Shown here in pieces: positions 37,825 to 63,205 of a DNA stretch of 64,000 nt. The position numbers were made by a program, and so were the translations under genes. Below the pieces are notes generated by a model that saw nothing but the letters and a program-made list of their open reading frames with translations, was not told where the DNA came from and made no database searches. The stretch covers positions 558,001 to 622,000 of the forward strand of contig NZ_PZPO01000001.1 in the NCBI RefSeq assembly GCF_013306565.1, written 5' to 3'. Numbering within the stretch: the first letter of the stretch is position 1; each line of letters begins with the position of its first letter. Source of the DNA: Hyphomicrobium sulfonivorans. Its GTDB lineage: Bacteria > Pseudomonadota > Alphaproteobacteria > Rhizobiales > Hyphomicrobiaceae.

Positions 37825-37911
37825 GCCCGAGTGGTGGAACTGGTAGACGCACGGGACTCAAAATCCCGCATCCGCAAGGGTATGTCGGTTCAAGTCCGAC
37901 CTCGGGCACCA
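37825..37911 (+). tRNA. tRNA-Leu (anticodon CAA)
   Basis: 87 nt with the acceptor stem GCCCGAG pairing CTCGGGC, an A discriminator and an encoded CCA end. The anticodon stem-loop is CGGGA-CTCAAAA-TCCCG, placing CAA as anticodon, which reads UUG leucine codons. A long variable arm (class II) and a GGTTCAAGTCC T-arm are present. Nearby short ORFs on both strands are artefacts of this gene. Confidence 0.96.
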
Positions 37912-43095: not shown

Positions 43096-43484
43096 ACGAA
43101 CCACTCCCGCGTGGATGATTGCGGTACATTGATCAATCATCGCGATAACCCGTTAACTCGCCGTTAATGCTAACAGCCCGGAACCATATGTGCAGATCCG
43201 GACCACCGCCCAATCCAGCCATGATTTGAAGGGCTTCCCTACTCTCCGCAGGCTCCAGCAGCGTTTCGGAGCCAAAGCGCGCCTAACATTATGACGACGC
43301 CAATTTGGCCCAGTTGAGGCCAAACCCCGGCACCAATCAGACAAAAGCCCGCAGCGGGCGATGCAACATTTGGTGTCAGTAACTTCCTCAGCCCCTTGAT
43401 GCATCGGGGACTTCAAACACAATCCAATTTCAGTGGCTGCTGATTCGCGCGTTCGGCCGAAGGTCTACGAAGGAGAAGCCTTGT
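43096..43484. other. Intergenic region with no gene found
   Basis: About 390 bp between the divergent CAP-domain gene and the winged-helix gene. It must contain promoters for both. The only clear element is the CtrA-like site at 43153-43167. A strong AAGGAGAAG ribosome-binding site (43470-43478) serves the ATG at 43485. No hairpin with T-tract was seen. Confidence 0.6.
43153..43167 (-). promoter_or_regulatory. Candidate CtrA binding site
   Basis: TTAA-N7-TTAA: TTAACTCGCCGTTAA, the exact spacing of the alphaproteobacterial CtrA box. It is 58 bp upstream of the CAP-domain lipoprotein start and about 320 bp from the divergent winged-helix gene. CtrA controls cell-cycle, motility and envelope genes in this class. 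A short motif like this can occur by chance. Confidence 0.5.
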
Positions 43485-44633
43485 ATGTCGGCGCCGAGCT
43501 TGAGCGCGCAGGCGCTGCCGGTGAACGGCAGTGGACCGAAGCAGGACGCAGCTAGCCCTATCGAGCATCTCATTCTTGTGCGGGCAGCGTGCGCAGGCGG
43601 TGCCAGCCGCGCGCAGGTCATTCGCGACCTTGCCCCGCTTTTCACACCCAAGGTGCCGTCTACCCGTTGGCGCTCGAAAGCCGACACCGCACTGACGAAG
43701 CTGATGCTTGGCGGCTTCATCACTGAAGCGCGCAGCAAACTGAAGCTGACTGAAAGCGGCGAAGAGACCGTCGCCCGATACTTCGGCGAAAGGGAAGCTC
43801 ACAACCGCACCTGGAACGAACAGCGCGATGTGTGGCTGACGGCCAAGGCACTTGGCGTCGATCCTCGCAAATCGGCGCTGCGTTCGGCGCTTTCACGCAA
43901 AGATGGCCTCAGCGCGCTGGTGGTGCAGCATACGTTTGGGCTGTCGGTCCGTCAGGCGCTTTCGCCATCAAAGCTGCGCGCCGCACTTGCGTTGCTGGCA
44001 CTTGAGCGTGCGTTTGGCGACAACGTGAAAGACGGCCTCGGCAAAGGCTCACCGCTTTCCGCCAAGGCGGGGCGCGTACTCGCCGGGCAACTGCTAAAAA
44101 AACCGCGCGAACTGCCGACTGATGCGCGCCTGATCACTGCGCTGTGCGCCGATCAGGCCGGCAGCATCCGTTACGACGTCGAAAGCCTTCGTCTGGCGGT
44201 ATTGCGCAAATTGGCATCCGCTGAGGTGTCGAAACTTTCGCGCATTGCCGACAGAACCCCCTTGCCGCCGCCAAGCGAATCGCTTTCGCAAAGCGTCCTC
44301 CAGTTCACACCGCAACCGGAAGAAGCGCCGCAGCGCCCTGGATTGGCGCAATTTTCTGCCGGTGTGCTCCGGGCGGCACGGAGCAACGCCGAGGGCTGGC
44401 CAGGGGCCCGGAAGGCGTTTATCTCAAAGGTGTGGGACGCGATTCGCACCTCGCACCCCGAATGGGGGCTTTCCGAGATCGAGTTCAAAGACATGCTGGC
44501 CGGGGCTCACCGGGCAGGCCAACTTGTGCTGGCCGGCGCAGACCTCAAAGACAAACAAAACATCAAGGAGTTTGAGGATTCAGCGATCCTCTACAAGAAC
44601 ACCGTCTGGCACTACGTGCGCGTCGAAGACTAG
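43485..44633 (+). CDS. Winged-helix-like protein paired with a dual NTPase (unrecognised)
   Basis: 382 residues with an excellent ribosome-binding site. Residues 27-105 look like a winged-helix domain: helices around HLILVRAACAGGASRAQVIR and TALTKLMLGGFI, then a wing-like TEARSKLKLTESGEETVARY. The middle (110-260) is helical and Lys/Arg-rich, the rest Pro-rich then helical (HPEWGLSEIEFKDMLAGAHR). No catalytic motif, signal or TM segment. The next gene starts 21 bp later on the same strand, so the two are almost certainly an operon. The winged helix suggests DNA binding or a kleisin/adaptor-like role for the NTPase; this is inference. Confidence 0.85.
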   Translation: MSAPSLSAQALPVNGSGPKQDAASPIEHLILVRAACAGGASRAQVIRDLAPLFTPKVPSTRWRSKADTALTKLMLGGFITEARSKLKLTESGEETVARYFGEREAHNRTWNEQRDVWLTAKALGVDPRKSALRSALSRKDGLSALVVQHTFGLSVRQALSPSKLRAALALLALERAFGDNVKDGLGKGSPLSAKAGRVLAGQLLKKPRELPTDARLITALCADQAGSIRYDVESLRLAVLRKLASAEVSKLSRIADRTPLPPPSESLSQSVLQFTPQPEEAPQRPGLAQFSAGVLRAARSNAEGWPGARKAFISKVWDAIRTSHPEWGLSEIEFKDMLAGAHRAGQLVLAGADLKDKQNIKEFEDSAILYKNTVWHYVRVED

Positions 44634-44654
44634 GACGTCGAGGACCGTCGACTG

Positions 44655-47600
44655 ATGCAGCTTAATCAAGCTTCCCCACAGCCAGCTTCCGACCGGCTGT
44701 TCTCAGCGTTCGAACACTCCATCACGTGGGAGGACGATATCTGGCGGGCTGATCCCGTCGATGTTGTCGAGGTTCACGCCAAGGCACGCCGCAAGTTTTC
44801 CGAGCTGCTTTCCGGCATCGTTTCCGGTCGCGGCCCCGGCACGCAGGATCGCATTCTGCTGTTTCACGGCCAATCTGGCGCTGGCAAGACGCATCTTCTG
44901 CGTGCGCTGCGCACTTCTGCGCATCGGGAAGGCCGCGCCTATTTCGGCTATGCGCAGATGACGCCGGATGTCGCCAACTACGCCGATTATTATCTGCGCC
45001 GTCTCGTGCACTCGCTGGAAAAAACCTACGACCCGGATGCTTCCGGCGAGAGCGCTCTGGCACGCCTGACGAGCCGCATGATCGACAACGCCGATGTCGA
45101 TCCCAAGGATCTGCAGAACCTGCGCGAAGCAAGCCTTGATGAAACGCGGCTGGCGCAGCTCGTGCTGAAGATGGCCGACGACATTTTAGCTTCGCCCCGC
45201 TATGCCGAGCTCGAACTCGACATCAACGTCGTCCGCGCGCTGCTGTATCTCGAGCGCCGCGATCCGCGCATCGATCAGCGTGTGCGCCAGTATCTGCATG
45301 GCCGCCCGTTGACGGAGCTTGCCCATCAGGCTGTTGCTGCGCTCGACCCCAATGACGGCGAAGATCGCGCATTCGAGATCATCGCCGCGCTCGGCGGGCT
45401 GATGTGGAGCATCGATCGCGCGGCACTGGTGTTCTGCGTCGATCAGGTCGAGGACTTGCGCTTCTTTTCCGACGCTGAAGAACGCTTCCAGCGCGCGGTG
45501 CGCGACCTCATCCAGATGGCCAACCGGGTGCCGAACGCCATCCTCATCATCTCGTGCCTGGAAGATTTTTACGGCCAGGTGCGCGGCGTTCTCGCACAAT
45601 CCTACATTGACCGCATTGAGAAGTCGGGGCCGGTGGCGCTGCTGGAAAGCCGCACGCCGGAGGAAGCGCGCCTGATCATTGCGAAGCGGCTGGCGCACAT
45701 CGCCGAAGCCGCTGAGCAGGGCACCCATTATTCCGATCCGTCGGCATACTTCGGCCCGCAGTTCTACGAGGAATTCGCCGGTCTTTCGACACGCCGACTG
45801 TTGGAGCACGCCTACAATCGGCTGCGCACCAAGACCACGTCGGACGAACCCGACGACGAAGAGACAGAAGACAACGCAAGCGTCGCGCAGTCGGAGCCTA
45901 GCGGTTTCATCTCGCGGCTCGCGGCGGCGCTTGGCCTCGGCGTGCCAGAAGAGATGGGCGGCGCTCCGGCATCGACGCGGTCTGCTGGTGCAAGCGTTGC
46001 ACCCGCTTTTGACTATCGTGAAACGTGGGAACGTTTCCAAAGCGCATCCGAAGCTGAAATTCCTTCTGACGAGAGCGAACTGCTGGATGTGCTGGCCGGT
46101 GCTATGCCGCTGGCACGCGACGAGTGGGCCGGCACGCTGCAGCTTTCCGTCGAGCGGCTTGAGCTTGGCGATGACGTGGCAGCGCTCGACTTTACACTGC
46201 GCCACGAACAAGGCTTCGCCACCGATGGGCGCGTATTCATCTGCAATCGTCCGACGCAGGGCGGTGGCCTGAAGCGCCAGCTTGACCGTGTGCTTTCCAG
46301 CATGGGCACCAAGCAGTGCTTCATGCTGCGCGCTTCAGATTTCCCGCCCAACCGCAAGAACCAGACGGCGCAGGCCGTGCGCAAGTTCCGCGAAAATGGC
46401 GGTCGCACGCTCACCGTTCCCATCGCCGAATGGGAGCGCATGATGATGGTGCGCGAATTCCAGACCCACCATCGTCTCGATCCAGGTTTCATGGATTGGC
46501 TGGCCGGCGCGCGGTTGTTGTCGAACCTCACGGTCATTATTCAGTTGTTGCGGCTCGATCTGCTTGGGCGCACGTTGCCGCGCTCGGCCATGATGGAGTT
46601 GCATGGCGTGCATCAACCGGAAGCGCCTGCCGCCGGTCAGCCGGATGCAGCGACACCGGCGCGCGGCCTGATGGGCACACTGGAAACGATGGCGCCCGCT
46701 GCGCCGGACGCTGCACATGCAGCTGATGCTGTCGACGAAGAGGGCTCAGACGCTCCCGTTGTTGCCGAGGCGGAGGAACAGCTCCCGCTGTCAGTCATCC
46801 TCGATGAAAACAGCGACGGCGACAGCATTTTCGGTGGCCGCGAGCTACGCCCTGGCGGTCGCCCGGTCACGCTGAACAAGAACGTTCTGAAGCGTCACGC
46901 TGCGGTGCTGGGTGGTTCCGGCTCCGGTAAGACAACGCTGGCGCTGAGCCTCATCGAACAGCTTCTGCTGCGCGGCATTCCCGCCGTTCTGCTGGACCGC
47001 AAGGGCGATCTTTGCTCCTACGCCAACCCGGATGTCTGGCGCGAGAACGACGAGGAATTTTCCGAGCGACGCGGTGAGCGCGAAAAGCTGGCCGACGCGA
47101 TCGACGTTGCAGTGTTCACGCCGGGACGCTCTTCCGGGCGGCCAATTTCGATCACGCTGCTGCCCAACGGCATCAACGAATTGCCCGACCACGAGCAGCA
47201 GCTGCTGGCGAACCTTTCGTCCGCCGCGCTCGGCGAAATGCTGCATCTGAAGAACTCGGCAACCCATCAGAAGCAGTCGGGCACGCTTTCGGTTGCACTG
47301 CGCATTCTGGGTTCGCGCCACAGTCGCGAAGTGACGCTGGCCGATCTCATCAACCTGCTTGAGGACGAAGATCCCGAGCTTTCCGATCTGACGCAGCGCA
47401 TGGATCCGTCCGGCAAGCTGCGTCGCGACCTGGTCGCGCAGCTCGACAGTCTCCGGCACCGTAACGCGTCGCTGTTCGAAGCGGGCGGCGAAACGCTCAA
47501 CATGGAATCGCTGCTTGGGCTTGGACCTCATGCACGCGAGGGCCGCACGCGCCTTTCCATCATCTACACAGGCTTCCTGGGCGACAACGAGAACATCCTG

Positions 47601-48146
47601 TTCTGGGTCTCGCAGTTCCTGTCCGAAGCGCTGCGCTTCTGCCAGCGCAACCCGAACGATGAGCTGCAAGCCGTCGTGATGTTCGACGAGGCCGACCTTT
47701 ACATTCCGGCCAACGCGAAACCGGCAACCGCTGAGCCGCTGCAGAGCCTTCTGAAGCGCGCCCGTTCGGCCGGTCTCGGCATCATGCTCGCTACTCAGTC
47801 GCCGGGCGACCTCGACTACAAGAGCCGCGATCAGATCACGAGCTGGTTCATCGGCCGCGTGCGTGAGGATACCGCGCTGCGCAAGCTCAAGGCCGCATTC
47901 CAGAGCGAGTCCGGACTCGACCCGGCGGCGGTGCTGCCCGGCCAGACAGTCGGCGAGTTCCATCTGGTGCAGGAAGGGCTGGTGCGTTCGATGAAGGCGC
48001 AGCGCTCGCTGATCATGGCGGAGCAGGTGCCATTCGACCGGATCGAGCAGCTTTCGCGGGAAACGAAAGGGCAGGACGAGCGCCAGCTCCGCCTTTTCGA
48101 CGCGCCGCTGCGGGCCATCGCGGGCGGTCTCAGCAAGCGTGGCTGA
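44655..48146 (+). CDS. Dual P-loop NTPase with HerA/FtsK-like C-terminal module (unrecognised system)
   Basis: 1163 residues. Module 1: Walker A GQSGAGKT (about 72-79), then a helical domain and a Walker B-like LVFCVDQVED, resembling AAA+/STAND or DptF/BrxC-type ATPases. A middle region (about 430-660) follows, with RVFICNRPTQGGGLKRQLDR. Module 2: LKRHAAVLGGSGSGKTTLAL (Walker A 753-760), AVLLDRKGDLC, Walker B VVMFDEAD (Asp at about 1011) and LATQSPGDLDYK. This is the HerA/VirB4/FtsK arrangement of hexameric DNA translocases. No TM segment, so cytoplasmic. Two NTPase modules in one chain beside a winged-helix partner recall phage-defence or DNA-processing machines such as Dnd/Dpt and BREX, but I recognise no known system. 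Confidence 0.9.
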   Translation: MQLNQASPQPASDRLFSAFEHSITWEDDIWRADPVDVVEVHAKARRKFSELLSGIVSGRGPGTQDRILLFHGQSGAGKTHLLRALRTSAHREGRAYFGYAQMTPDVANYADYYLRRLVHSLEKTYDPDASGESALARLTSRMIDNADVDPKDLQNLREASLDETRLAQLVLKMADDILASPRYAELELDINVVRALLYLERRDPRIDQRVRQYLHGRPLTELAHQAVAALDPNDGEDRAFEIIAALGGLMWSIDRAALVFCVDQVEDLRFFSDAEERFQRAVRDLIQMANRVPNAILIISCLEDFYGQVRGVLAQSYIDRIEKSGPVALLESRTPEEARLIIAKRLAHIAEAAEQGTHYSDPSAYFGPQFYEEFAGLSTRRLLEHAYNRLRTKTTSDEPDDEETEDNASVAQSEPSGFISRLAAALGLGVPEEMGGAPASTRSAGASVAPAFDYRETWERFQSASEAEIPSDESELLDVLAGAMPLARDEWAGTLQLSVERLELGDDVAALDFTLRHEQGFATDGRVFICNRPTQGGGLKRQLDRVLSSMGTKQCFMLRASDFPPNRKNQTAQAVRKFRENGGRTLTVPIAEWERMMMVREFQTHHRLDPGFMDWLAGARLLSNLTVIIQLLRLDLLGRTLPRSAMMELHGVHQPEAPAAGQPDAATPARGLMGTLETMAPAAPDAAHAADAVDEEGSDAPVVAEAEEQLPLSVILDENSDGDSIFGGRELRPGGRPVTLNKNVLKRHAAVLGGSGSGKTTLALSLIEQLLLRGIPAVLLDRKGDLCSYANPDVWRENDEEFSERRGEREKLADAIDVAVFTPGRSSGRPISITLLPNGINELPDHEQQLLANLSSAALGEMLHLKNSATHQKQSGTLSVALRILGSRHSREVTLADLINLLEDEDPELSDLTQRMDPSGKLRRDLVAQLDSLRHRNASLFEAGGETLNMESLLGLGPHAREGRTRLSIIYTGFLGDNENILFWVSQFLSEALRFCQRNPNDELQAVVMFDEADLYIPANAKPATAEPLQSLLKRARSAGLGIMLATQSPGDLDYKSRDQITSWFIGRVREDTALRKLKAAFQSESGLDPAAVLPGQTVGEFHLVQEGLVRSMKAQRSLIMAEQVPFDRIEQLSRETKGQDERQLRLFDAPLRAIAGGLSKRG

Positions 48147-51487: not shown

Positions 51488-54400
51488 ATGTCGTTGCGGA
51501 CCAATGCACCGTGGTCGCATATGCGCGAAGCAGGCGCTGGCTACGGATATGGATTTGAATCCGACAGCGATTGGGCAGAGCCCGAAGCCAAAAAACGCGA
51601 CTGGAAAAAGATCGTTCTGATCGTCGGCCTGGCGGCATTATCGTGGGTTGCAACCTACGTCGGCATGCTGGAGCTGATCGAGAGCAACATGGGCTCGCTG
51701 CCTCTAGTGCATAAGGCGATCATCGGCTTTTCGGTGGCGATGCTGATGACGATGGTCGTGTGGCTGCTCGACCAGATGTTTTCGCCCATCGATTGGTTCA
51801 CCCGTCTCACGTACATATTCGGATACATCTTTCTTACCCTCATTTCCGTCGGCTTCGGTTTCGGCTTCTACTGGAAGGTGCTGGAAAGCCGCTCGGAAGC
51901 TGCGCGTTCGGCGGAAAGCGCGGTTGGCCAGGTTCAGTCTGCGCTGCACGGTGCAACAACCCGCCTTGAACAATTGAATTCCACGCTAATTCAGCTTGCT
52001 GCCGTCTCAACGCAGAAGGCAACGCTGGAACGCGAAAAAGGTTCAACCTGCCCGAACTCGTCGCCGGGCGATGGCCCGCGCCGCAAGCTGCGCGACGAAG
52101 ATGCCCAGCGCTTCAGTTTTGCTTCCGATTTTGTGACGGGCCGCGTGGGTTCGATCAAGAGCGACATGGCGCTGCTGGATGGCGACATGGCGAAGATCGT
52201 GAAGAACGACGCGTCAACGATGGACGCGCACGGCACGCGTAACGAATTCATGCGCTCGCTGGGACGCCGCCTTGACATGACCGTGACCGGTTTCAACGCG
52301 TTCCGCACCGATCCGCAGCTGCGCCAGATCCGCGCCGATCTTGCCGACCGCGCCGAGCGCTCAAGCTTCAGCGCCGACAACGGCAAGACGTTCGCATGCC
52401 CCGATGCACAATTGCAGGCGTCACTGCGCGGTGTGGTGCGCGCGATCGATCAACTTCCAACGCTTGAGAAACCGCAGATAGCAGCCGTTGAAGGCTCGGA
52501 AGCCACCATCGAAGCCTTCCGCCGCCTGACCGCAACGTTTGTTGGCCTGCTGTCGTTTGAGCTGCCGCCATCGGCCGATGAGCTGCGCACGCTGCAACAG
52601 CGCGCTGTGCAATCGATCGACAATCCGGCTGCATTGGCGGCGCTGAACAATGAGTCCGTCGGCCTTTCCCAGCGCGATTACATTCCGCTCGGCGTGGCGC
52701 TGTTCGTTGATCTCTGTCTGCTGCTGGTTTCAATCGGGCGGCCGATGAACCGTTTCGTTGCTACACGGCAGAGCATGATCGATGCGGAACGCGGGCCGGT
52801 GTTTCCGATCCTGTCGCGGTTTTCGCAGATCCATAACCACGACGAGATGCGCGGCACGTTCGATGTGTTTCGCGAAGTGATCTTTGAATCCGGCGGCACC
52901 TATTATGTCGCCGTGCCATTGAACGCGCCGCGCGAACACCCCCAGCGCGATGAGCTGCTGCGGGAAGCGCAGATGCTGGCCAACCTGTGTTACGCGCTGG
53001 AAGGGCAGGGTATTCTGGCGCGTCCGTGGAAAATCGCGCCGGGTCTGGTGGCGGCGCGCAAGCTGCGTCGACAGGGCTCCAAGTTCATCGAGTGTTACCG
53101 CGACGCTCAGGTGGCGCCGGTACCGCGCGCGATGCGTGCTCTTGGCGGCATGTTCATCGCCGACAATGCCGGTGAGGACAGGCCCGCGTTCAGAATTTAT
53201 GCCTTCAAGCGCGGCGCGTGGCCGGAGATGATCCTGGGCGCGGTGATGGGCGCAGCGCGGCGCATGGAGACTGAGCAGCAGCGCCAGCGCGTGCTTTCGC
53301 TTGCGGTTGTAGAGGACGCGCACGTCAGGGCGGAGTTTGAGCGCTCGATCCTTGAAGACCGCGCGCCGGAAAGCGGGCGCGGGCATGCGCACCGGACGGT
53401 TGATAGCGACGCGCTCGACGTCGGTGGTGATCATGATGCCGATGAGCGGGATGTGGATCTAGCCCCGCGTCGCCACCGCAGCGAGCCGCGCAGCTATCGC
53501 CCGTTCCGGCATCGGCCGGGGATGGCTGAGGAGATGGCCGAGCCTATTCTGGATGTGGTCGGCCGACCGATCGACGACGATGATGGCTTTGCATTCGATC
53601 CCGAATGGGATGCCGCTGCGGACGAGGGGCCGGAGGAGCGGGAGCAATCCGAGCAGCCGGGCGCGGACGAGTTGCAGGCGGAAGTTTCGGATGAGATCCG
53701 TGAGCCGGTGGCAGCGCCCGTGATGGCGGCGCCCATGAAGGCGACGCCCGCATCGGCGCCTCCGGCAGCCGTGTCGCCCGCAGCTGCCACGCCGCAGCCG
53801 AAGGTCGGCAAAGAGCCGGACGCCGCGTTGCGCCAACGCTTCGGCAGCTATGCCGGGCTCGCGGAGGCCGAGCTGGCATCCTATCAGGACATCGAAGACG
53901 ACGCCGACGAGGCTGAAGACGCGATCCATGCGGACGCTGAGATAGCGGCAGGGGCGGACCAGCGTCCGGCAGACGCCAACGCGTTTGGGCGCGGGGAAGC
54001 GGTAGCAATCGAGCCGGAGCAGCCCGGCAATGCGACGGCGGTGGTCGTGCCGTTCCCGCATCAGGTCGCGACGACGCCTGCGGGGGCCGAGAAATATAGT
54101 AACGGCGCTGCGGCATCATCGTCTGAGGCGGCGACTGGATCGGACCTGGCCGCACGCCTCGCCGCAGCGCTTGCAGCCTCGGATGGCAGCGAAGAACCCG
54201 GCGGCTGGCAAAGCATCGACCTGGAACTGAAGCGCGAGACAGCGACGCTGCGGGTGCCGGTAAGCCACGCCGCGCTGCCCGCCGAGTTGCTCCGGCTTGC
54301 CCGCTCAACGCCGGGCGCAACGTTGCAGATATCCGAAATCACCGCGGACGAACCGCAACTGGAACTGGCTTTCGAGACAACCCGGCTGACCGAATCAGCT

Positions 54401-54580
54401 CCGACACGGCCCGAAACGGTCGCCCGGATTGCTCAACTGCCATCCGATCAGCCTTTGTCGGATGCCGAGGAGGCTATGGGGGCGCAATGGGTTGCACCAC
54501 TAGATGCTGATGGCGACGCCAGCGATTTCGATCAACCGGCGCTCAAACGGCCTCGGGTACTGCGCAATATGGCGGAATAA
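51488..54580 (+). CDS. Large membrane protein with coiled coil and acidic disordered tail (unrecognised)
   Basis: 1030 residues. Three transmembrane helices lie near residues 42-63, 76-97 and 108-129. A coiled-coil/helical periplasmic or cytoplasmic region (130-395) and a fourth helix (IPLGVALFVDLCLLLVSI, about 398-415) follow. A globular domain (about 430-620; GTFDVFREVIFESGGTYYVA, RAMRALGGMFIADNAG) is next, then about 400 residues of acidic Ala/Pro/Glu-rich low complexity with a last ordered patch (LRVPVSHAALPAELLRLARS). Topology resembles DUF4407-type four-helix membrane proteins, but I cannot assign it. ATG 51488 follows GAGCGGG. Upstream on the same strand are the PBP and dual NTPase. 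Confidence 0.85.
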   Translation: MSLRTNAPWSHMREAGAGYGYGFESDSDWAEPEAKKRDWKKIVLIVGLAALSWVATYVGMLELIESNMGSLPLVHKAIIGFSVAMLMTMVVWLLDQMFSPIDWFTRLTYIFGYIFLTLISVGFGFGFYWKVLESRSEAARSAESAVGQVQSALHGATTRLEQLNSTLIQLAAVSTQKATLEREKGSTCPNSSPGDGPRRKLRDEDAQRFSFASDFVTGRVGSIKSDMALLDGDMAKIVKNDASTMDAHGTRNEFMRSLGRRLDMTVTGFNAFRTDPQLRQIRADLADRAERSSFSADNGKTFACPDAQLQASLRGVVRAIDQLPTLEKPQIAAVEGSEATIEAFRRLTATFVGLLSFELPPSADELRTLQQRAVQSIDNPAALAALNNESVGLSQRDYIPLGVALFVDLCLLLVSIGRPMNRFVATRQSMIDAERGPVFPILSRFSQIHNHDEMRGTFDVFREVIFESGGTYYVAVPLNAPREHPQRDELLREAQMLANLCYALEGQGILARPWKIAPGLVAARKLRRQGSKFIECYRDAQVAPVPRAMRALGGMFIADNAGEDRPAFRIYAFKRGAWPEMILGAVMGAARRMETEQQRQRVLSLAVVEDAHVRAEFERSILEDRAPESGRGHAHRTVDSDALDVGGDHDADERDVDLAPRRHRSEPRSYRPFRHRPGMAEEMAEPILDVVGRPIDDDDGFAFDPEWDAAADEGPEEREQSEQPGADELQAEVSDEIREPVAAPVMAAPMKATPASAPPAAVSPAAATPQPKVGKEPDAALRQRFGSYAGLAEAELASYQDIEDDADEAEDAIHADAEIAAGADQRPADANAFGRGEAVAIEPEQPGNATAVVVPFPHQVATTPAGAEKYSNGAAASSSEAATGSDLAARLAAALAASDGSEEPGGWQSIDLELKRETATLRVPVSHAALPAELLRLARSTPGATLQISEITADEPQLELAFETTRLTESAPTRPETVARIAQLPSDQPLSDAEEAMGAQWVAPLDADGDASDFDQPALKRPRVLRNMAE

Positions 54581-55367: not shown

Positions 55368-55548
55368 CATGGCTTTACCGGGGAAAGCGCCAGATCACGA
55401 CAACGCCCCGCAACTGGCGGGAAAAAGCGATAAGCCGCTCCTTGTCGTCATTCTATGGACATTGGCCGCTGCTCCCTTTTCCGCCGCAGTAGACTTCTAA
55501 ATAATTCAGCCTGACCGCTCCCGGCTCAGCCCTTTGATGGTGGCCCCA

Positions 55549-58500
55549 ATGACGTTCCTTGCCCGATTACTCCTGACACTAACCATGCTGCTGCCACTGG
55601 CCCCCGCCATGGCTTCGCAAGCTAAACAAAACAGCGATCTCCCCTTTGCCCATCAGGGCGTGAAGGACGACGGCAAACGCTACGAGGACTACCTGAAGGC
55701 CAACTGGAAGCTTGATGGAAAGCGGGCCGCCGATCTGCGCCGCGAAGGCGAGCGCGCCATGCACTCCGATCCGCGCGCGGCAGCGCGGGGCTTCGCCAGT
55801 GCAGCCGTAGCCGATCCCAAGGATGTGGAATCATGGATGGGTCTGGCGCGTGCACTGCTGGCCATTCCCGCTGATCCGAACAACTCCAGCGAGCGTTACG
55901 ACCTGCAGGTGAACGCCTCGGGCGCGGCCTACATCGCCTATGAGCGCGCGAAAGATAAGCCGCAGCGTGCGCGCGCGCTTGCCGTTCTCGCCAGCGCACT
56001 GGAACAGCGCTCCTACTGGCGGCCTGCACTGGATGCATTGAAGACGAGCCTTGCACTGGCCGACAATGGCGCCGTGCGCGAAAGCTATGACCGCCTGCGC
56101 GCCGAGCGCGGCTTCCGCATGACCGACTACAAGACGGAATCGGAAGCAGCGGCCCCGCGCCTGTGTCTGCAATTCTCCGAAAGCCTTTCGCGTCAGGAAA
56201 CCGACTTCACCAAGTTCGTTACCGTTGATGGCAAGGACCCGCAATCGGTCAACGCTGAAGACAGCCAGCTTTGCATCGATGGCCTGACGCACGGTCAGCG
56301 CTATCGCGTGCAGTTGCGCGCCGGGCTTCCGTCTGCGGTCGAAGAAGAACTGCAGAAGAATGTCGACATTGCCGTTTACGTACCCGACCGCAAACCGTTC
56401 GTGCGCTTCTCCGGCCGTTCGTATGTGCTGCCGAGCCGTGGCCAGCAGGGCATTCCGCTTGTCACCGTCAACACCGCCAAGGTGGAAGTTGAAGTATTCC
56501 GCATCGGCGATCGCAATCTTGCAGGCGCGCTGCAGAGCGGCGACTTCCAGCGCCAGCTTCAGCGCTATGACGTGGAGCAGATCCGCAATACGTCCGGCGA
56601 GAAGGTCTTCAGCGGCACCATGGACGTGCCGCAGAAGCTGAACGAGGAAATGACCACGGCGCTGCCGGTTACCGATGCTGTCGGCGCGCTGAAGCCGGGC
56701 GTGTACATTGCGATTGCGCGGCCGACCGAAAAGTCGAACCGCAATGGCAACGAATACGGCCCCGAAGCGACGCAGTGGTTCATCGTTTCCGATCTCGGTC
56801 TGACCGCGTTCTCTGGCAACGACGGCGTGCATGCGTTTGTGCGCTCGCTGGCTGAAGCCAATGTCTCGGCCGACGTGAACGTGAAACTCATCGCCCGCAA
56901 CAACGAGGTTCTGGGCACATCCAAAACCGATGCACGCGGCTATGCGCGCTTCGACGCTGGCCTGACGCGCGGCGAAGGCGGATTGCAGCCCGCGCTGCTG
57001 GTTGCTGAAAGTGCTGGCGGTGAATACGCCTTCCTCGATCTCACCTCTGGCGCGTTCGATCTAACCGATCGCGGCGTGAAGGGACGTGAAGCACCGGGTC
57101 CGATCGACGGCTATCTCTACACCGAACGCGGCGTCTATCGCCCCGGCGAGAACGTGCACATTGCCGGCCTTGTCCGCGACACAGCCGGCATGGCTGTGCC
57201 GCTACCGGTTACGCTGATCGTCACGCGCCCCGATGGCGTTGAACATGCGCGCTACACGCTGAAGGATCGCGGTCTCGGCGGACGCGACTTCACGCTGCCG
57301 CTTGCGCCTTCATCGATGACGGGCACGTGGCGCGCGAAGCTGCACACCGATCCGGAAAAGCCCGCGCTGACGCAGGTTTCCTTCCTGGTGGAAGACTTCG
57401 TGCCTGAACGGCTCGACCTGAAACTGAAGGCACCTGAATCTGCTCTGACGCCGGACAAGCCGCAGACCATCGAAGCATCGGGACGCTATCTCTACGGCCC
57501 GCCTGCTGCCGATCTGGCGATTGAAGGCGACATCGTCGTGCGCCCTTCAACGAAGGAGTTGCCCGGTTACGCAGGCTTCCAGTTCGGTCTTGCCGACGAG
57601 CGGATCGATCCGGTTCGCAAGCCGCTGGATGTTGCGACCACCACCAATGCTGAAGGCATCGCCAAGGTTGCCGTGTCGCTGCCCGCAGTGACCAAGACCG
57701 CAAAGCCGCTGGAAGCCAGCGTTATCCTGCGCATGCGCGAATCCGGTGGCCGCACTATTGAACGCACGATCACGATACCGGTTGACATCGCGCAGCCGCG
57801 CATCGGCGTGAAGCCGCTGTTCAAGAACGATCGAATTGATGAAGGGCAGACGGCTTCGTTTGACGTTGCCAGCATCAATGCCGCCGGCGCGCGCATCGGC
57901 GAAAGCGACCTGAAATGGACGCTGAGCCGCCTCGACACCAACTGGCAGTGGTATCGCCGCGACGGCTACTGGAACTATGAAGCTGTGACGCTGACCCGCA
58001 AGGTGGCGGACGGCACGATTGCAACCGGCGCGGAAGGCGACTTTGCGAAGATCGCCGTGCCGGTGGAATGGGGCCGCTATAAGCTTGAAGTTGCATCCGC
58101 CGATCCGAACGGCCCGGCCACCAGCACGATCTTCTATGCGGGCTGGTATTCCACGGCCAACGACTCGGAGAGCCCGGAAATTCTGGACGTTGCTCTCGAC
58201 CGCGCAACCTACAAGCCGGGCGATACGGCCAAGCTGCGCATCGCCAGCAAGCTGGGCGGCAAGGCGCTGGTTTCGGTGCTGTCCGGCGATGTGATTTCCA
58301 TGCAGGAGGTCGACATCCCGAACGGTGGCGGCGAGGCGACTGTTGCTGTCGGCGACAACTGGGGTCCGGGTGCTTACGTCACCGCGATGATCTATCGCCC
58401 GCTGGATGAAAAGCTGAAGCGCATGCCAAGCCGCGCCATTGGCGTTGCATGGCTGGGCCTCGACCAGAAGGAGCGCACGCTGGACGTTGCGATCAGCGCG

Positions 58501-60864
58501 CCGGAGAAGATCAAATCCGGCACCACGCTGAACGTGCCGGTGAAGGTGGATGGCCTGAAGGCTGGCGAGGAGGCTTACGTTACGCTGGCCGCTGTCGATC
58601 TCGGCATTCTGAACCTGACGCGCTTTGCTACGCCATCGCCGGAAAGCTGGTTCTATGCGCAGCGTCGCATGGGGCTGGAGATCCGCGACTTCTATGGCCG
58701 CCTGATTGACGGCATGCGTGCGGAACGCGGTTCGCTGCGCTCCGGCGGCGACGGTGCCGACATGGGTATGCAGGGATCTCCGCCGGTTGAGGCCACGGTA
58801 GCGGAGTTCTCCGGCATCGTGCGCGTCGGCAAAGACGGTACGGCGAAGGTTGACTTCGAGCTGCCGGACTTCAACGGCACCGTGCGCGTGATGGCCGTTG
58901 CGTGGAGCGCCGACAAGCTTGGTCATGGCCAGCAGGACGTGATCGTGCGCGACGCGGTTGCGCTGACGGCATCGGGCCCGCGGTTCCTGACGCTTGGCGA
59001 TGAAGCACGCCTCGACATCGCGGTGCATAACGTTGAAGGGCCGCAGGCTGCGTATACGGTAGAGCTGACCAATGACGGCAAGCCGGTGCACACCGGCGCG
59101 CTGGACCTGAACACCGGTGAGCGCCGTGCGCAACACATCGCCATCAAGCCGACAGTTGTTGGCCTGACGAACTATGATGTGCGCGTGACCGGCCCCGACG
59201 GCATCGACGTGAAGCGTCCGCTGACGTTCGACGTGAAGCCGCCGGCCGGTGACATCAAGCGCACCACGGTTGCGACGCTGAAGCCGGGTGGCAACATCAC
59301 GCTGAACCCGGATCTGGTGCGCGACATGATCGCCAACCGCACCCGCGTTTCGATCAGCACCGGACCGACAGCACGCTTCGACATTCCGGCGCTGCTGACC
59401 TCGCTCGACCGTTACCCCTATGGCTGCGCCGAGCAGACCGTGAGCCGCGCGCTGCCGCTGCTTTACGCCAACTCAGTTGCTAAGGGTGTGGGGCTTGCAT
59501 CGGATGGCGAGCTGAAGGAGCGCGTGCAGGCGGCTGTTGATCGCGTGTTCGACATGCAGGATGGCAGCGGCGCGTTCGGCACCTGGGGTCCGTCGAATGC
59601 GGATCTGTGGCTGACCGGCTACGTGACCGACTTCCTCTCCCGCGCGAAGGAGCAGGGCTTTACCGTGAACGCGAACGGCTTCAGCCGCGCGCTGGACCGG
59701 CTGCAGAACTTCATCGCCTACGCTGAGGATTTCAAGCAGGGCGGCGAAGACCGTGCCTACGCGCTGTATGTGCTGGCGCGTAATGGCCGCGCACCGATCG
59801 GCGACCTGCGTTACTACGCCGATACGCGTCTTGATCGCTTCTCGACACCGCTGTCACGCGCTCAGTTGGGCGCAGCACTGGCGATGATGGGCGACAAGCC
59901 GCGTGCGGAAACGGCGTTCGCTTCGGCGCTGGATGCGTTGCATCTGCCGGAAGCGACGGGGCTGGGTGGCTATCGCGCCGACTACGGTTCCGACCTGCGC
60001 GACAGTGCGGCACTCATCACGCTGGCATCGGAAACGCGGATGGCGAATGTGGAAGCGCCGAAGCTGATCGATGTGGTTGCCAAGGCCTACTCCGGCCGCA
60101 GCAACACCTCGACGCAGGAACAGGCGTGGATGCTGCTGGCCGCCAATGCGCTGGCGGAGGAAGGCAACGACCTGAAGCTGATCGTCAACGGTGCCCCGGT
60201 TGTTGGCCCCGTGTCGCGGTCGCTGTCGGCGGAGACGATCCTGCGCGAACCGCTGATCGTAACCAACGATGGCGATGCGCCGGTGGATACCGTCGTGACG
60301 GTGATCGGTTCGTCGCTGACAACGGAACCGCCGGTTGCGAAGGGCTTCACCATCGAGCGGCAGTACTTCAAGCTGGATGGTACGCCTGTTGTGCTCGACA
60401 GCGCCAACGGTGGCAGCGCCAGCATCGGCCAGAACGAACGTCTGGTGACGGTGCTGAAGGTGAGCGGTGAGCAAGCCGGCGGCCGCGTGCTGCTGGTGGA
60501 TCACCTGCCTGCTGGCTTCGAGATCGACAATCCGCGTCTCGTCGACAGCGGCGATGTGAAGGCTCTGGAGTGGCTGAAGACAACCGTGCAGCCGGAGCAT
60601 TCGGAATTCCGCGACGATCGTTTCGTGGCAGCGTTCAACTTCTCCGGCAAGGCGGCTTCGGCAAACAACGACGCCGATGAAGCCACCGGTGAGGGCCAGG
60701 AAAACGCCTCGCCGCCAGCAAGCAGCGCGACGGTTGCCTATCTCGTTCGCGCGGTGACCCCGGGTGTGTTCGTGCACCCCGCCGCAACCATCGAAGACAT
60801 GTACCGACCGGAGCGCTATGCGCGTACCGGCGCGGGCACGCTCACCGTGCAGCCGAGCAAGTGA
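55549..60864 (+). CDS. Bacterial alpha-2-macroglobulin (thioester type)
   Basis: 1771 residues from ATG 55549; an ATG at 55537 adds four residues. It has a signal peptide without a lipobox cysteine (LLLTLTMLLPLAPAMASQ), so it is probably a soluble periplasmic protein, unlike lipoprotein YfhM. MG-type domains (DGYLYTERGVYRPGENVHIA is the diagnostic macroglobulin segment) lead to the thioester motif YGCAEQ (Cys at about residue 1293) and the helical TED domain (DMQDGSGAFGTWGPSNADLW, LTGYVTDFL). Such proteins trap proteases in the periplasm. pbpC follows 127 bp downstream, the conserved partner order in many bacteria. Confidence 0.95.
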   Translation: MTFLARLLLTLTMLLPLAPAMASQAKQNSDLPFAHQGVKDDGKRYEDYLKANWKLDGKRAADLRREGERAMHSDPRAAARGFASAAVADPKDVESWMGLARALLAIPADPNNSSERYDLQVNASGAAYIAYERAKDKPQRARALAVLASALEQRSYWRPALDALKTSLALADNGAVRESYDRLRAERGFRMTDYKTESEAAAPRLCLQFSESLSRQETDFTKFVTVDGKDPQSVNAEDSQLCIDGLTHGQRYRVQLRAGLPSAVEEELQKNVDIAVYVPDRKPFVRFSGRSYVLPSRGQQGIPLVTVNTAKVEVEVFRIGDRNLAGALQSGDFQRQLQRYDVEQIRNTSGEKVFSGTMDVPQKLNEEMTTALPVTDAVGALKPGVYIAIARPTEKSNRNGNEYGPEATQWFIVSDLGLTAFSGNDGVHAFVRSLAEANVSADVNVKLIARNNEVLGTSKTDARGYARFDAGLTRGEGGLQPALLVAESAGGEYAFLDLTSGAFDLTDRGVKGREAPGPIDGYLYTERGVYRPGENVHIAGLVRDTAGMAVPLPVTLIVTRPDGVEHARYTLKDRGLGGRDFTLPLAPSSMTGTWRAKLHTDPEKPALTQVSFLVEDFVPERLDLKLKAPESALTPDKPQTIEASGRYLYGPPAADLAIEGDIVVRPSTKELPGYAGFQFGLADERIDPVRKPLDVATTTNAEGIAKVAVSLPAVTKTAKPLEASVILRMRESGGRTIERTITIPVDIAQPRIGVKPLFKNDRIDEGQTASFDVASINAAGARIGESDLKWTLSRLDTNWQWYRRDGYWNYEAVTLTRKVADGTIATGAEGDFAKIAVPVEWGRYKLEVASADPNGPATSTIFYAGWYSTANDSESPEILDVALDRATYKPGDTAKLRIASKLGGKALVSVLSGDVISMQEVDIPNGGGEATVAVGDNWGPGAYVTAMIYRPLDEKLKRMPSRAIGVAWLGLDQKERTLDVAISAPEKIKSGTTLNVPVKVDGLKAGEEAYVTLAAVDLGILNLTRFATPSPESWFYAQRRMGLEIRDFYGRLIDGMRAERGSLRSGGDGADMGMQGSPPVEATVAEFSGIVRVGKDGTAKVDFELPDFNGTVRVMAVAWSADKLGHGQQDVIVRDAVALTASGPRFLTLGDEARLDIAVHNVEGPQAAYTVELTNDGKPVHTGALDLNTGERRAQHIAIKPTVVGLTNYDVRVTGPDGIDVKRPLTFDVKPPAGDIKRTTVATLKPGGNITLNPDLVRDMIANRTRVSISTGPTARFDIPALLTSLDRYPYGCAEQTVSRALPLLYANSVAKGVGLASDGELKERVQAAVDRVFDMQDGSGAFGTWGPSNADLWLTGYVTDFLSRAKEQGFTVNANGFSRALDRLQNFIAYAEDFKQGGEDRAYALYVLARNGRAPIGDLRYYADTRLDRFSTPLSRAQLGAALAMMGDKPRAETAFASALDALHLPEATGLGGYRADYGSDLRDSAALITLASETRMANVEAPKLIDVVAKAYSGRSNTSTQEQAWMLLAANALAEEGNDLKLIVNGAPVVGPVSRSLSAETILREPLIVTNDGDAPVDTVVTVIGSSLTTEPPVAKGFTIERQYFKLDGTPVVLDSANGGSASIGQNERLVTVLKVSGEQAGGRVLLVDHLPAGFEIDNPRLVDSGDVKALEWLKTTVQPEHSEFRDDRFVAAFNFSGKAASANNDADEATGEGQENASPPASSATVAYLVRAVTPGVFVHPAATIEDMYRPERYARTGAGTLTVQPSK

Positions 60865-60991
60865 GCCACGCAAATTGCGCCCCGCTGTCTGATCCGAACA
60901 GGATTTGGCGGCGGGGCGTCATTGCACAGAAGCGATTACAGCACCGCACGTCTAATTGTTCTGCATTTCCTGGACGGGTTTGAAAATTTCG

Positions 60992-63205
60992 ATGAACGAC
61001 GCAGCCAGCAACGCCAGTCATGAACAACGCGGCATAGGAGCGTTATTGCGCCGCTGCCGCCACGCGGTGACGCGGCGCAAACTGGCGATGGCGTCGGCGG
61101 TGTTTGGTGCTTTCGGTCTCTGCGCGACCGCTGCGATTGTATTCACCGTTTCCCGCATGCCACCACCGGATCTTGCTGCGGCGGAAAAACTTTCAACCGT
61201 AGTGCTGGACCGCAACGGCCAGCTGCTGCGCGCGTTCACCACTTCCGACGGCCGCTGGCGACTGCCGGTTGAAGTCGCCGATGTCGATCAGCGCTATCTG
61301 GCAATGCTGATGGCGTTTGAAGACAAGCGCTTCTACAGCCATGGCGGCGTGGACGTACGTTCCGTTGCGCGCGCATCATGGCAGCTCATAACGCACGGCA
61401 GGATCGTATCCGGCGCTTCGACCCTTACGATGCAGGTCGTGCGTTTGCTAGAGGGCCGCTACGAGCGCTCCGGCAATGCAAAGTTGCGTCAGGTTGTCGG
61501 CGCATTGCGGCTTGAGCATAAACTGACGAAAACCGAAGTGCTGGCATTGTATCTGCGGCTGGCACCATTCGGCGGCAACATCGAAGGTGTACGCGCGGCT
61601 TCGCTGGCCTACTTCGGCAAGGAACCGCAGCGCCTTTCGATCGGGCAGGCGGCACTGCTGGTGGCACTGCCCCAGTCGCCGGAATGGCGCCGCCCCGACC
61701 GCAACCCGAAGGCTGCGCGCATCGCCCGCAATCGTGTGTTGCAGCGGGCGGTTGAAGAGGGCGTCATCAATCAGGCAGAGGCAGACCGCGCGATACTGGA
61801 GCCGGTGCCGACGCACCGCCGCGCCTTCCCGCAGCTTGCGCCGCACATCGCGGAATCTGAAGTGCGTGCCGATCCGATTGCGGCCGAACATCGCCTCACG
61901 ATAGACCGCAACATCCAGCGCGCACTGGAAACGCTGGCGCGCGAACAGACCGCCCTGCTGGGCCAGAAGCTCTCCGCCGCCATTCTTGCCATCGACCACA
62001 CCAGCGGCGAGATCGTCGCCCACGTGGGTTCGGCCGGATATCTGGATGGCACACGGGCTGGTGCTATTGATATGGTCAGCGCCGTGCGTTCACCGGGTTC
62101 GACGTTGAAGCCGTTTATTTATGGCCTCGCATTTGAAGCCGGGCTTGCCCATCCCGAGACACTGATTGAAGACCGCCCGGTGCGTTTCGGCTCCTACGCG
62201 CCCAAGAATTTCGACGAAGATTTTCACGGCACCGTCACCATCCGCCACGCGCTGTCGCAATCGCTGAACATTCCGGCGGTGAAGGTGCTGGCCGCTGTTG
62301 GCCCCGGCAAACTGGCCGGACGGTTCCGCAAGGTTGGCGCCGAAACGGTATTCCCCGACGCAACGCAACCGACGCTGGCTATGGCACTCGGTGGCGTTGG
62401 CCTGACCTTGCGCGACGTTGCAACGCTTTACACGGGGCTGGCGCGGGGCGGCGATGTTATCCAGCTGACGCATCGGCGCGCCGACGCGGAAGCTGCTGCC
62501 AAGGCATTGCTTCACGGGAAACAGCGCAAGCATGAAACGCTGCTGTCACCGGTTGCGACCTGGTATGTGAGCGACATTCTGAAGGATGCGCCGCCGCCAT
62601 TGAATGCGCGTGCGGGTCGTTTCGCCTACAAAACCGGTACATCCTACGGCTATCGCGACGCCTGGGCTGTTGGCTATGATGGCAAGTATACCATCGCGGT
62701 GTGGGTGGGCCGCCCCGATGCCGCATCGACGCCGGGCCTTACCGGCCGCCTTGCAGCCGCGCCCATTCTGTTTGATGCCTTCGCTCGCATCGGCGAAAAA
62801 CGCGTGCCGCTTGCGGGCGCACCGGCCGGCGCGTTGCGCGTTTCGGGATCGGATCTGCCACCACCACTGAAGCGCTTCCGCGAGGGCGGCGCCGAGACGG
62901 TGCAAGGCCCGTTTCTGGAGCCGCGCGTTGTGATCTCTTATCCGCCGGACCGATCCGAGGTTGAGACCGAGAGCGAGGATGCGCTGCTGCTTAAAGCCAG
63001 CGGCGGCGTGCTGCCGCTGACGTGGCTGGTGAACGGCGCGCCGATTGAATCCGATCCGCGCACACGCGAGGTGATCTGGCAGCCCGATGGCGATGGCTTC
63101 GTCAGGCTGTCGGTGGTGGATGCGAAGGGCCGCGTTGATCGCGTCACAGTGCGCCTCAAATCACCCGAAATGGCGGCCGTTTTTCTGCCCGACCACGGGG
63201 AATGA
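60992..63205 (+). CDS. pbpC: Penicillin-binding protein 1C
   Basis: 737 residues from ATG 60992. One N-terminal transmembrane helix (MASAVFGAFGLCATAAIVFT) is followed by a complete GT51 domain (FEDKRFYSHGGVD with Glu110; GASTLTMQVVRLL), a transpeptidase domain with STLK (Ser370, Lys373), SLN and KTGTSYGYRDAWAVG, and a C-terminal PBP1C-type domain (about 630-737; KRFREGGAETVQ, PLTWLVNGAPIE). All catalytic motifs are intact. It polymerises and crosslinks peptidoglycan, and pairs with the alpha-2-macroglobulin gene upstream, thought to repair walls after protease or host attack. Confidence 0.96.
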   Translation: MNDAASNASHEQRGIGALLRRCRHAVTRRKLAMASAVFGAFGLCATAAIVFTVSRMPPPDLAAAEKLSTVVLDRNGQLLRAFTTSDGRWRLPVEVADVDQRYLAMLMAFEDKRFYSHGGVDVRSVARASWQLITHGRIVSGASTLTMQVVRLLEGRYERSGNAKLRQVVGALRLEHKLTKTEVLALYLRLAPFGGNIEGVRAASLAYFGKEPQRLSIGQAALLVALPQSPEWRRPDRNPKAARIARNRVLQRAVEEGVINQAEADRAILEPVPTHRRAFPQLAPHIAESEVRADPIAAEHRLTIDRNIQRALETLAREQTALLGQKLSAAILAIDHTSGEIVAHVGSAGYLDGTRAGAIDMVSAVRSPGSTLKPFIYGLAFEAGLAHPETLIEDRPVRFGSYAPKNFDEDFHGTVTIRHALSQSLNIPAVKVLAAVGPGKLAGRFRKVGAETVFPDATQPTLAMALGGVGLTLRDVATLYTGLARGGDVIQLTHRRADAEAAAKALLHGKQRKHETLLSPVATWYVSDILKDAPPPLNARAGRFAYKTGTSYGYRDAWAVGYDGKYTIAVWVGRPDAASTPGLTGRLAAAPILFDAFARIGEKRVPLAGAPAGALRVSGSDLPPPLKRFREGGAETVQGPFLEPRVVISYPPDRSEVETESEDALLLKASGGVLPLTWLVNGAPIESDPRTREVIWQPDGDGFVRLSVVDAKGRVDRVTVRLKSPEMAAVFLPDHGE

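Follow-up and report, generated by a model that had tools for sequence, protein, structure and literature searches.

A winged-helix protein and an AAA+–HerA translocase form a nuclease-free gene pair that is near-universal in Hyphomicrobiaceae and akin to predicted capture systems

Introduction

HerA/FtsK-type motors recur in defence systems, where they are usually assumed to supply DNA to a nuclease. In 2024, Rakesh, Aravind, and Krishnan (Nucleic Acids Research) predicted a class of origin recognition complex (ORC)/Cdc6–HerA/FtsK 'capture' systems which, according to the main text of their paper, combine an ORC/Cdc6 AAA+ ATPase with a HerA/FtsK translocase (in one or several chains), a winged helix-turn-helix (wHTH) protein, and a nuclease (PMC10853773). 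An inactive restriction endonuclease (REase) is inserted after the AAA+ core, an active REase is 'usually' present in the operon, the gene neighbourhood is mobile, and a subset carries a fast-evolving, DndG-related wHTH protein; the main text reads the class as anti-invader (PMC10853773). A 2026 paper by two of these authors extends the idea, in its main text, to BREX-related capture systems (PMC12839542). Here, we analyze a two-gene operon in a 64,000-nucleotide (nt) stretch of the Hyphomicrobium sulfonivorans genome (contig NZ_PZPO01000001.1, positions 558,001 to 622,000; hereafter "the window"), which encodes a winged-helix protein (A) and a large protein with two ATPase modules (B). The initial annotation, made from the DNA letters, did not recognise this combination as a system, but it is already in print as part of the predicted class outlined above (PMC10853773, main text).

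With a probability of roughly 0.6, we read A–B from its sequence as a machine that loads and translocates DNA but has no nuclease of its own, domesticated and vertically inherited as a core locus in Hyphomicrobiaceae and akin to the predicted capture systems. The suggestion of a new DNA-processing or defence machine thus holds for the nuclease-free, near-fixed form, but not for the core architecture, which had been predicted before (PMC10853773, main text). No description of such a family-wide form was found in literature searches or in term searches of the main texts of PMC10853773 and PMC12839542; by the same means, the former makes no mention of Hyphomicrobi-, Rhizobi- or DUF559 in its main text.

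Distribution and inheritance

B was found in 100 of the 103 genomes of the window's family, a count that takes in some matches crossing a stop codon or split between contigs, and in 74 of the 76 with a completeness of ≥90 % and a contamination of ≤5 %. The three genomes without B are drafts of 400–580 contigs, one of them 54 % complete. It is furthermore present in all eight genomes of a second family (f33) and, as a related form, in all eight genomes of a third (f30). In a sample of the order, 40/397 genomes matched B at E 1e-30 (21 from the window's family, 8 from f33, 8 from eight other families, and 3, namely G030, G048, and G218, with a three-gene form described below), while in a sample of the class no genome other than the window's own matched at E 1e-20 (0/288). 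Most named relatives belong to Hyphomicrobium, Filomicrobium, or bins of Hyphomicrobiaceae; the closest is Hyphomicrobium sp. D-2 (96 %). Matches to B occurred in 4 of 72,556 plasmid records.

A survey of gene neighbourhoods, as proposed in the initial annotation, placed A directly upstream of B on the same strand in all 69 named loci with both open reading frames (ORFs) readable, so that the two genes are linked (gap 10–332 nt, median 46, and 21 nt in the window; in another 8 of the 77 named loci, the available stretch contains only one of the ORFs). Where the upstream sequence was long enough, a CAP-domain gene lies near A–B in 47/56 loci; a D-alanyl-D-alanine carboxypeptidase gene does so in 28/47, and a flippase gene in 19/54. 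Across loci, the identity of B to its window counterpart tracks that of six neighbouring genes (Pearson r 0.76–0.98, n 18–52), and both genes resemble their neighbours in GC content and GC content at third codon positions (GC3). The ratio of nonsynonymous to synonymous substitution rates (dN/dS) in four pairs was 0.04–0.11 for B and 0.05–0.23 for A; both are under purifying selection. Taken together, linkage, identity tracking that of the neighbours, low dN/dS, and neighbour-like GC and GC3 argue for a vertically inherited core locus. The patchy distribution expected at the outset was not borne out, and near-universal presence in a largely conserved neighbourhood makes A–B unlike an ordinary defence island. 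A mobile element was likewise rejected, given the neighbour-like GC and GC3 and the lack of B relatives among viral contigs in two limited scans, whose single-protein queries are sensitive to close relatives only.

Domain architecture of A and B

The features of both genes are compiled in Table 1. The strong ribosome-binding site and the winged-helix-like start of A proposed in the initial annotation were both recovered, the latter as the opening domain of the AlphaFold2 model, and the 21-bp gap, the 1163 residues of B, both Walker A motifs, DQVE, and DEAD lie exactly where it had placed them.

Table 1. Features of the A–B operon in window coordinates.
Feature	Position	Strand	Basis or remark
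Ribosome-binding site AAGGAG	43470..43475	+	sequence; 9 nt ahead of the ATG of A
Gene A, 382 aa (amino acids), winged-helix protein, no Pfam family	43485..44633	+	directly upstream of B
A, N-terminal winged helix, residues 22-102	43548..43790	+	AlphaFold2 model
A, all-helical middle module, residues 110-256	43812..44252	+	AlphaFold2 model
A, C-terminal winged-helix-like domain, residues 286-382	44340..44630	+	AlphaFold2 secondary structure, alignments
Gene B, 1163 aa: AAA+, alpha/beta, and HerA/FtsK modules	44655..48146	+	
B, AAA+ (ORC/Cdc6-STAND-like) ATPase module, residues 42-394	44778..45836	+	Pfam, invariant R320/R380
First Walker A GQSGAGKT, B residues 72-79	44868..44891	+	
First Walker B region DQVE, B residues 263-266	45441..45452	+	D263, Q264 invariant
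B, middle module, residues 473-589, putative inactive restriction-endonuclease-like domain	46071..46421	+	element order in model
B, HerA/FtsK-type translocase module, residues 712-1136	46788..48062	+	
Second Walker A GGSGSGKT, B residues 753-760	46911..46934	+	
Second Walker B DEAD, B residues 1011-1014	47685..47696	+	D1011, E1012, A1013 invariant
R1037 (arginine-finger position) to Q1048 (sensor glutamine)	47763..47798	+	both invariant in alignment

No match to A came up in Pfam at E ≤0.1, nor in PADLOC or NCBIfam at E ≤0.01. Its C-terminal domain is the most conserved part, as judged by eye from alignments, and the protein as a whole has diverged more quickly than B, with median identities to the window's copies of 42 % and 70 %, respectively. 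A Foldseek search with the A model returned nothing under E 0.001; among the matches listed, weak ones to the kleisins JetA (Wadjet) and MukF (E 0.08–0.33, root-mean-square deviation >20) are a lead only. Two candidate identities were rejected: a DptG relative, after an empty profile comparison with two DptG sequences, and a fused nuclease, as A is unlike the nuclease profile introduced below and blank in Pfam.

The predicted fusion of an AAA/STAND-like module to a HerA translocase in B agrees with both Pfam and the conserved motifs. At the N-terminus, AAA_22 (42.5 bits), AAA_16 (35.4), and nSTAND1 (30.0) scored above their cut-offs, and DUF87 (47.3 bits) and HerA_C (43.4) matched the C-terminus. 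The ORC/Cdc6–STAND assignment of the AAA+ module stems from these profile matches and from residues such as the two arginines, invariant in the alignment, rather than from placement in the ORC clade by a tree. Catalytic residues of both ATPase modules are invariant or at least 90 % conserved in 50 aligned sequences; the arginine finger and sensor glutamine are hallmarks of HerA/FtsK (PMC10853773, main text). The middle module shows an alpha-beta-beta-beta-alpha-beta order in the model (residues 473–559) and has no conserved D/E..K pair, and it may thus be a dead nuclease fold. At residues ~569–601, the middle-module profile also matches PDB 9szu (PLZ2.3) over 33 residues (E 7.6e-5).

The best match of the HerA part in PADLOC, a defence-only library, is mad8 (5.8e-21), and the AAA+ module has weak similarity to BrxD. 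HerA relatives with solved structures include many defence proteins, but also DNA-repair HerA, VirB4, and TrwB; archaeal HerA, known from the HerA–NurA pair, ranks among the best structural matches. The latter, together with the core presence of B, would fit an A–B that works in DNA repair or end processing in the manner of HerA–NurA and recruits a host nuclease. We consider this improbable, because the pair has no nuclease gene of its own and because the closest HerA profile kin in the defence-only library is mad8 (DndH for the f30 form). HerA–NurA is moreover not known to include AAA+ and wHTH partners.

Three-gene relatives and the missing nuclease

Full-length B homologues with 21–23 % identity occur in G030, G048, G218, Methylobacterium aquaticum, Tsukamurella, and Nonomuraea (loci L114, L115, L116, L120, L121, and L122). 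In all six, the gene order is nuclease, ~230-aa wHTH protein, and B, with gaps of -19 to 16 nt. DUF559 scored over its cut-off in all three of these nucleases scanned with Pfam, and the six nucleases and a Xanthobacter fragment described below have N, D, E, D, H, and D residues at common positions of the nuclease domain. In PADLOC, mad8 matches the HerA part of the relatives, with weak part-matches otherwise. The three-gene form is sporadic (1/398 genomes of the phylum at E 1e-40). A defence island around these relatives was looked for and not clearly seen: ten flanking ORFs, chosen by length and thus perhaps not all true genes, were scanned, with matches for seven (TonB receptor, esterase, NYN, HlyD with M50 peptidase, glycosyltransferase, PAS, and DEAD helicase) and none for the other three. 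In Tsukamurella tyrosinosolvens, the operon sits inside the ribosomal protein operon between the L14 and S17 genes (L121 6262-12981), accompanied by a PIN/VapB pair and a DEAD helicase.

The kinship to defence systems suggested in the initial annotation is thus borne out by the capture class and by these relatives, and its remark that no nuclease is visible is true of the window-clade loci examined but not of the distant relatives. A profile of the six nucleases, built without the Xanthobacter fragment, gave a best E of 0.7 against window-clade loci (up to 10 kb on each side where available). In the f30 loci, no nuclease matched at E 0.01. In the window's own genome, neither DUF559 (E 0.01) nor MTES_1575 (E 0.1) matched, as compared to 4/14 and 8/14 control genomes, respectively. 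The Xanthobacter plasmid pXAUT01 carries an A homologue (profile E 2.8e-13) and a truncated B of 455 aa, preceded by a 101-aa ORF with a nuclease-profile match at E 6.2e-5 and a DUF559 match (0.013) that falls below the cut-off. From this arrangement, we conclude with moderate confidence that A-type pairs once had a nuclease, which was likely lost from the A–B lineage.

The missing nuclease and the truncated member on pXAUT01 could also be taken to mean that A–B is a functionless, decaying remnant of a mobile defence operon. This is highly improbable, though, in view of the dN/dS of 0.04–0.23, the conserved catalytic residues in 50 sequences, and the presence of B in nearly every genome of the family.

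Probable exchange of the HerA motor

In family f30, all eight loci contain an A homologue (E 1.7e-15 to 8.8e-4); seven have a closed B ORF, and in the eighth the contig ends within the region. The A proteins of f30, aligned together with the Xanthobacter protein, are related over their full length to those of the window clade (hhalign probability 99.3, E 1.8e-20). Compared with a window-clade B profile that also contains three three-gene rows, most f30 N-terminal and middle modules fit throughout (about 33–640; in L148 in two pieces); the f30 HerA part fits only around the motifs. The HerA tree joins f30 to DptH (100/100) and keeps it separate from both the window clade and the three-gene group; its mean HerA identity is 30.8 % to DptH and 19.9 % to the window clade, and its best PADLOC match is DndH (2.4e-28). 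Within each group, HerA is better conserved than the N-terminal module (N-module), and window clade and three-gene group share 25.7 % identity in HerA versus 17.1 % in the N-module.

As f30 carries a DndH-like HerA on the same A–B core, the motor was probably exchanged between lineages. We say only probably, since the N-module tree consists of three groups, offers no topology able to conflict with the HerA tree, and cannot by itself contradict it; both trees are midpoint-rooted, with some long branches flagged by the program. The reverse direction, in which DndH took its HerA from an f30-like protein, may also apply. Genome G030 holds both forms, a two-gene locus with DndH-like HerA (L145) and a three-gene operon (L114). 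A 243-aa ORF follows B in several f30 genomes (L147 11336-12067, L149 11807-12538, L150 11108-11839), of which that in L147 has no Pfam match.

Possible functions

In the proposed machine, the winged helices of A would read or grip DNA, A and the AAA+ part of B would together serve as loader or sensor, and the HerA part would form a hexamer that moves double-stranded DNA at the expense of ATP. Lacking a cutter, A–B would likely act on DNA that is being moved, be it the cell's own chromosome, during segregation, repair, or termination, or incoming DNA, which it would hold or displace. Fixation of a pair that lacks a nuclease speaks for a cellular use. With motor, loader, and DNA reader retained by nearly all genomes examined in the family, but not the nuclease, the pair separates pump from cutter in nature, and it may exemplify a predicted defence module turned into a housekeeping DNA machine.

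Its main rival is a standing defence: a working anti-invader system fixed in these families that recognises foreign DNA, pumps it, and passes it to a nuclease supplied in trans or disables it without cutting. The nuclease gene of the three-gene relatives, the many defence proteins among solved HerA relatives (alongside DNA-repair HerA, VirB4, and TrwB), the faster evolution of A (42 % versus 70 %), as a target reader might display, and the published interpretation of the capture class (PMC10853773, main text) are all compatible with it. On balance, we regard it as possible though less probable, as B occurs in 100/103 genomes in largely conserved neighbourhoods, the genome has no DUF559 or MTES_1575 matches, and the five window neighbours scanned fit no PADLOC model.

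Several points weigh against the domesticated, nuclease-free machine that we prefer. Sequence searches gave no nuclease match for the middle module, whose REase-like reading derives from secondary-structure order, and the overall model of B is moderately confident (predicted template modelling score 0.47). A is weakly similar to the 230-aa wHTH protein of the relatives (probability 26, P 7e-4), the f30 A proteins still less so (probability 1.5), and kinship between A and DptG went undetected with the two sequences compared. Whether a nuclease was lost here or gained in the relatives depends on the root, which was set at the midpoint, and a nuclease of another family may be encoded elsewhere.

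Hyphal budding is an unusual trait of these bacteria. A bolder and rather doubtful extension of the domestication scenario is that a defence-type ORC/HerA machine, upon losing its nuclease, became the cell's second chromosome pump beside the presumed FtsK, perhaps to move or clear DNA in the course of hyphal budding, and did so in more than one lineage with differing HerA motors. The role in budding is a guess drawn from the family's biology.

Neighbouring genes

A tRNA-Leu (CAA) gene lies 5.6 kb before A (37825-37911), where the conserved neighbourhood argues against an island. A 1030-aa conserved protein without Pfam match over cut-off is encoded beside a transglycosylase-domain protein (51488-54580), and a macroglobulin gene followed by a PBP1C-like gene is located ~7 kb after B (55534-63205). 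The three-gene operon of G048 (L115 4720-12000) also adjoins a bacterial alpha-2-macroglobulin homologue; the two sites could represent a shared insertion spot.

Comparison with known systems

A conjugation coupling protein was rejected, as the TraD and VirB4 models scored far under their cut-offs with B. B also remained below the cut-offs for the BREX proteins BrxD (NF033438, 31.7 versus 350 bits) and BrxC_BrxD (PF10923, 21.6 versus 22.2) and for anti-phage HerA (NF042943, 29.3 versus 800 bits). The mad8 model of MADS comprises 314 residues and spans only the HerA part of B; among seven window proteins scanned with PADLOC, no mad model matched except mad8 and, weakly, mad3, both in B. HerA–DUF4297, HerA–Sir2, and HerA–NurA share the HerA translocase fold with B, which differs in having an AAA+ module in the same chain and A as wHTH partner; neither A nor B matched DUF4297, Sir2 or NurA, with Pfam for B taken as the best 25 of 38 matches. 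SspBC of the Ssp phosphorothioate system, as described in the main text of PMC10853773, likewise combines wHTH and ORC/Cdc6-type AAA+ proteins, but that description includes no HerA module. DndFGH (DptFGH) has the HerA/FtsK module in common, and the f30 version places a DndH-like one on the A–B core. However, DndH bears its own REase and other domains (PMC10853773, main text), the PADLOC DndH match covers the HerA part only, and neither A nor B matched DndF or DndG.

The three-gene operons share the order of AAA+, middle module, and HerA in B as well as a wHTH gene just upstream, but they include a DUF559/MTES_1575 nuclease gene and occur sporadically; their ~230-aa wHTH protein has no counterpart to A's long helical middle module and is of uncertain kinship to A. 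Closest are the predicted capture systems, with which A–B has in common an AAA+ ATPase, a wHTH protein encoded by a fast-evolving gene alongside, HerA/FtsK modules of differing sources, and possibly an inactive REase-like insert. A–B has no active nuclease and, unlike these systems, lies outside a mobile neighbourhood and is near-universal in whole families. Since an active nuclease and a mobile neighbourhood are part of their description, we file A–B as a variant of the capture systems rather than as a member.
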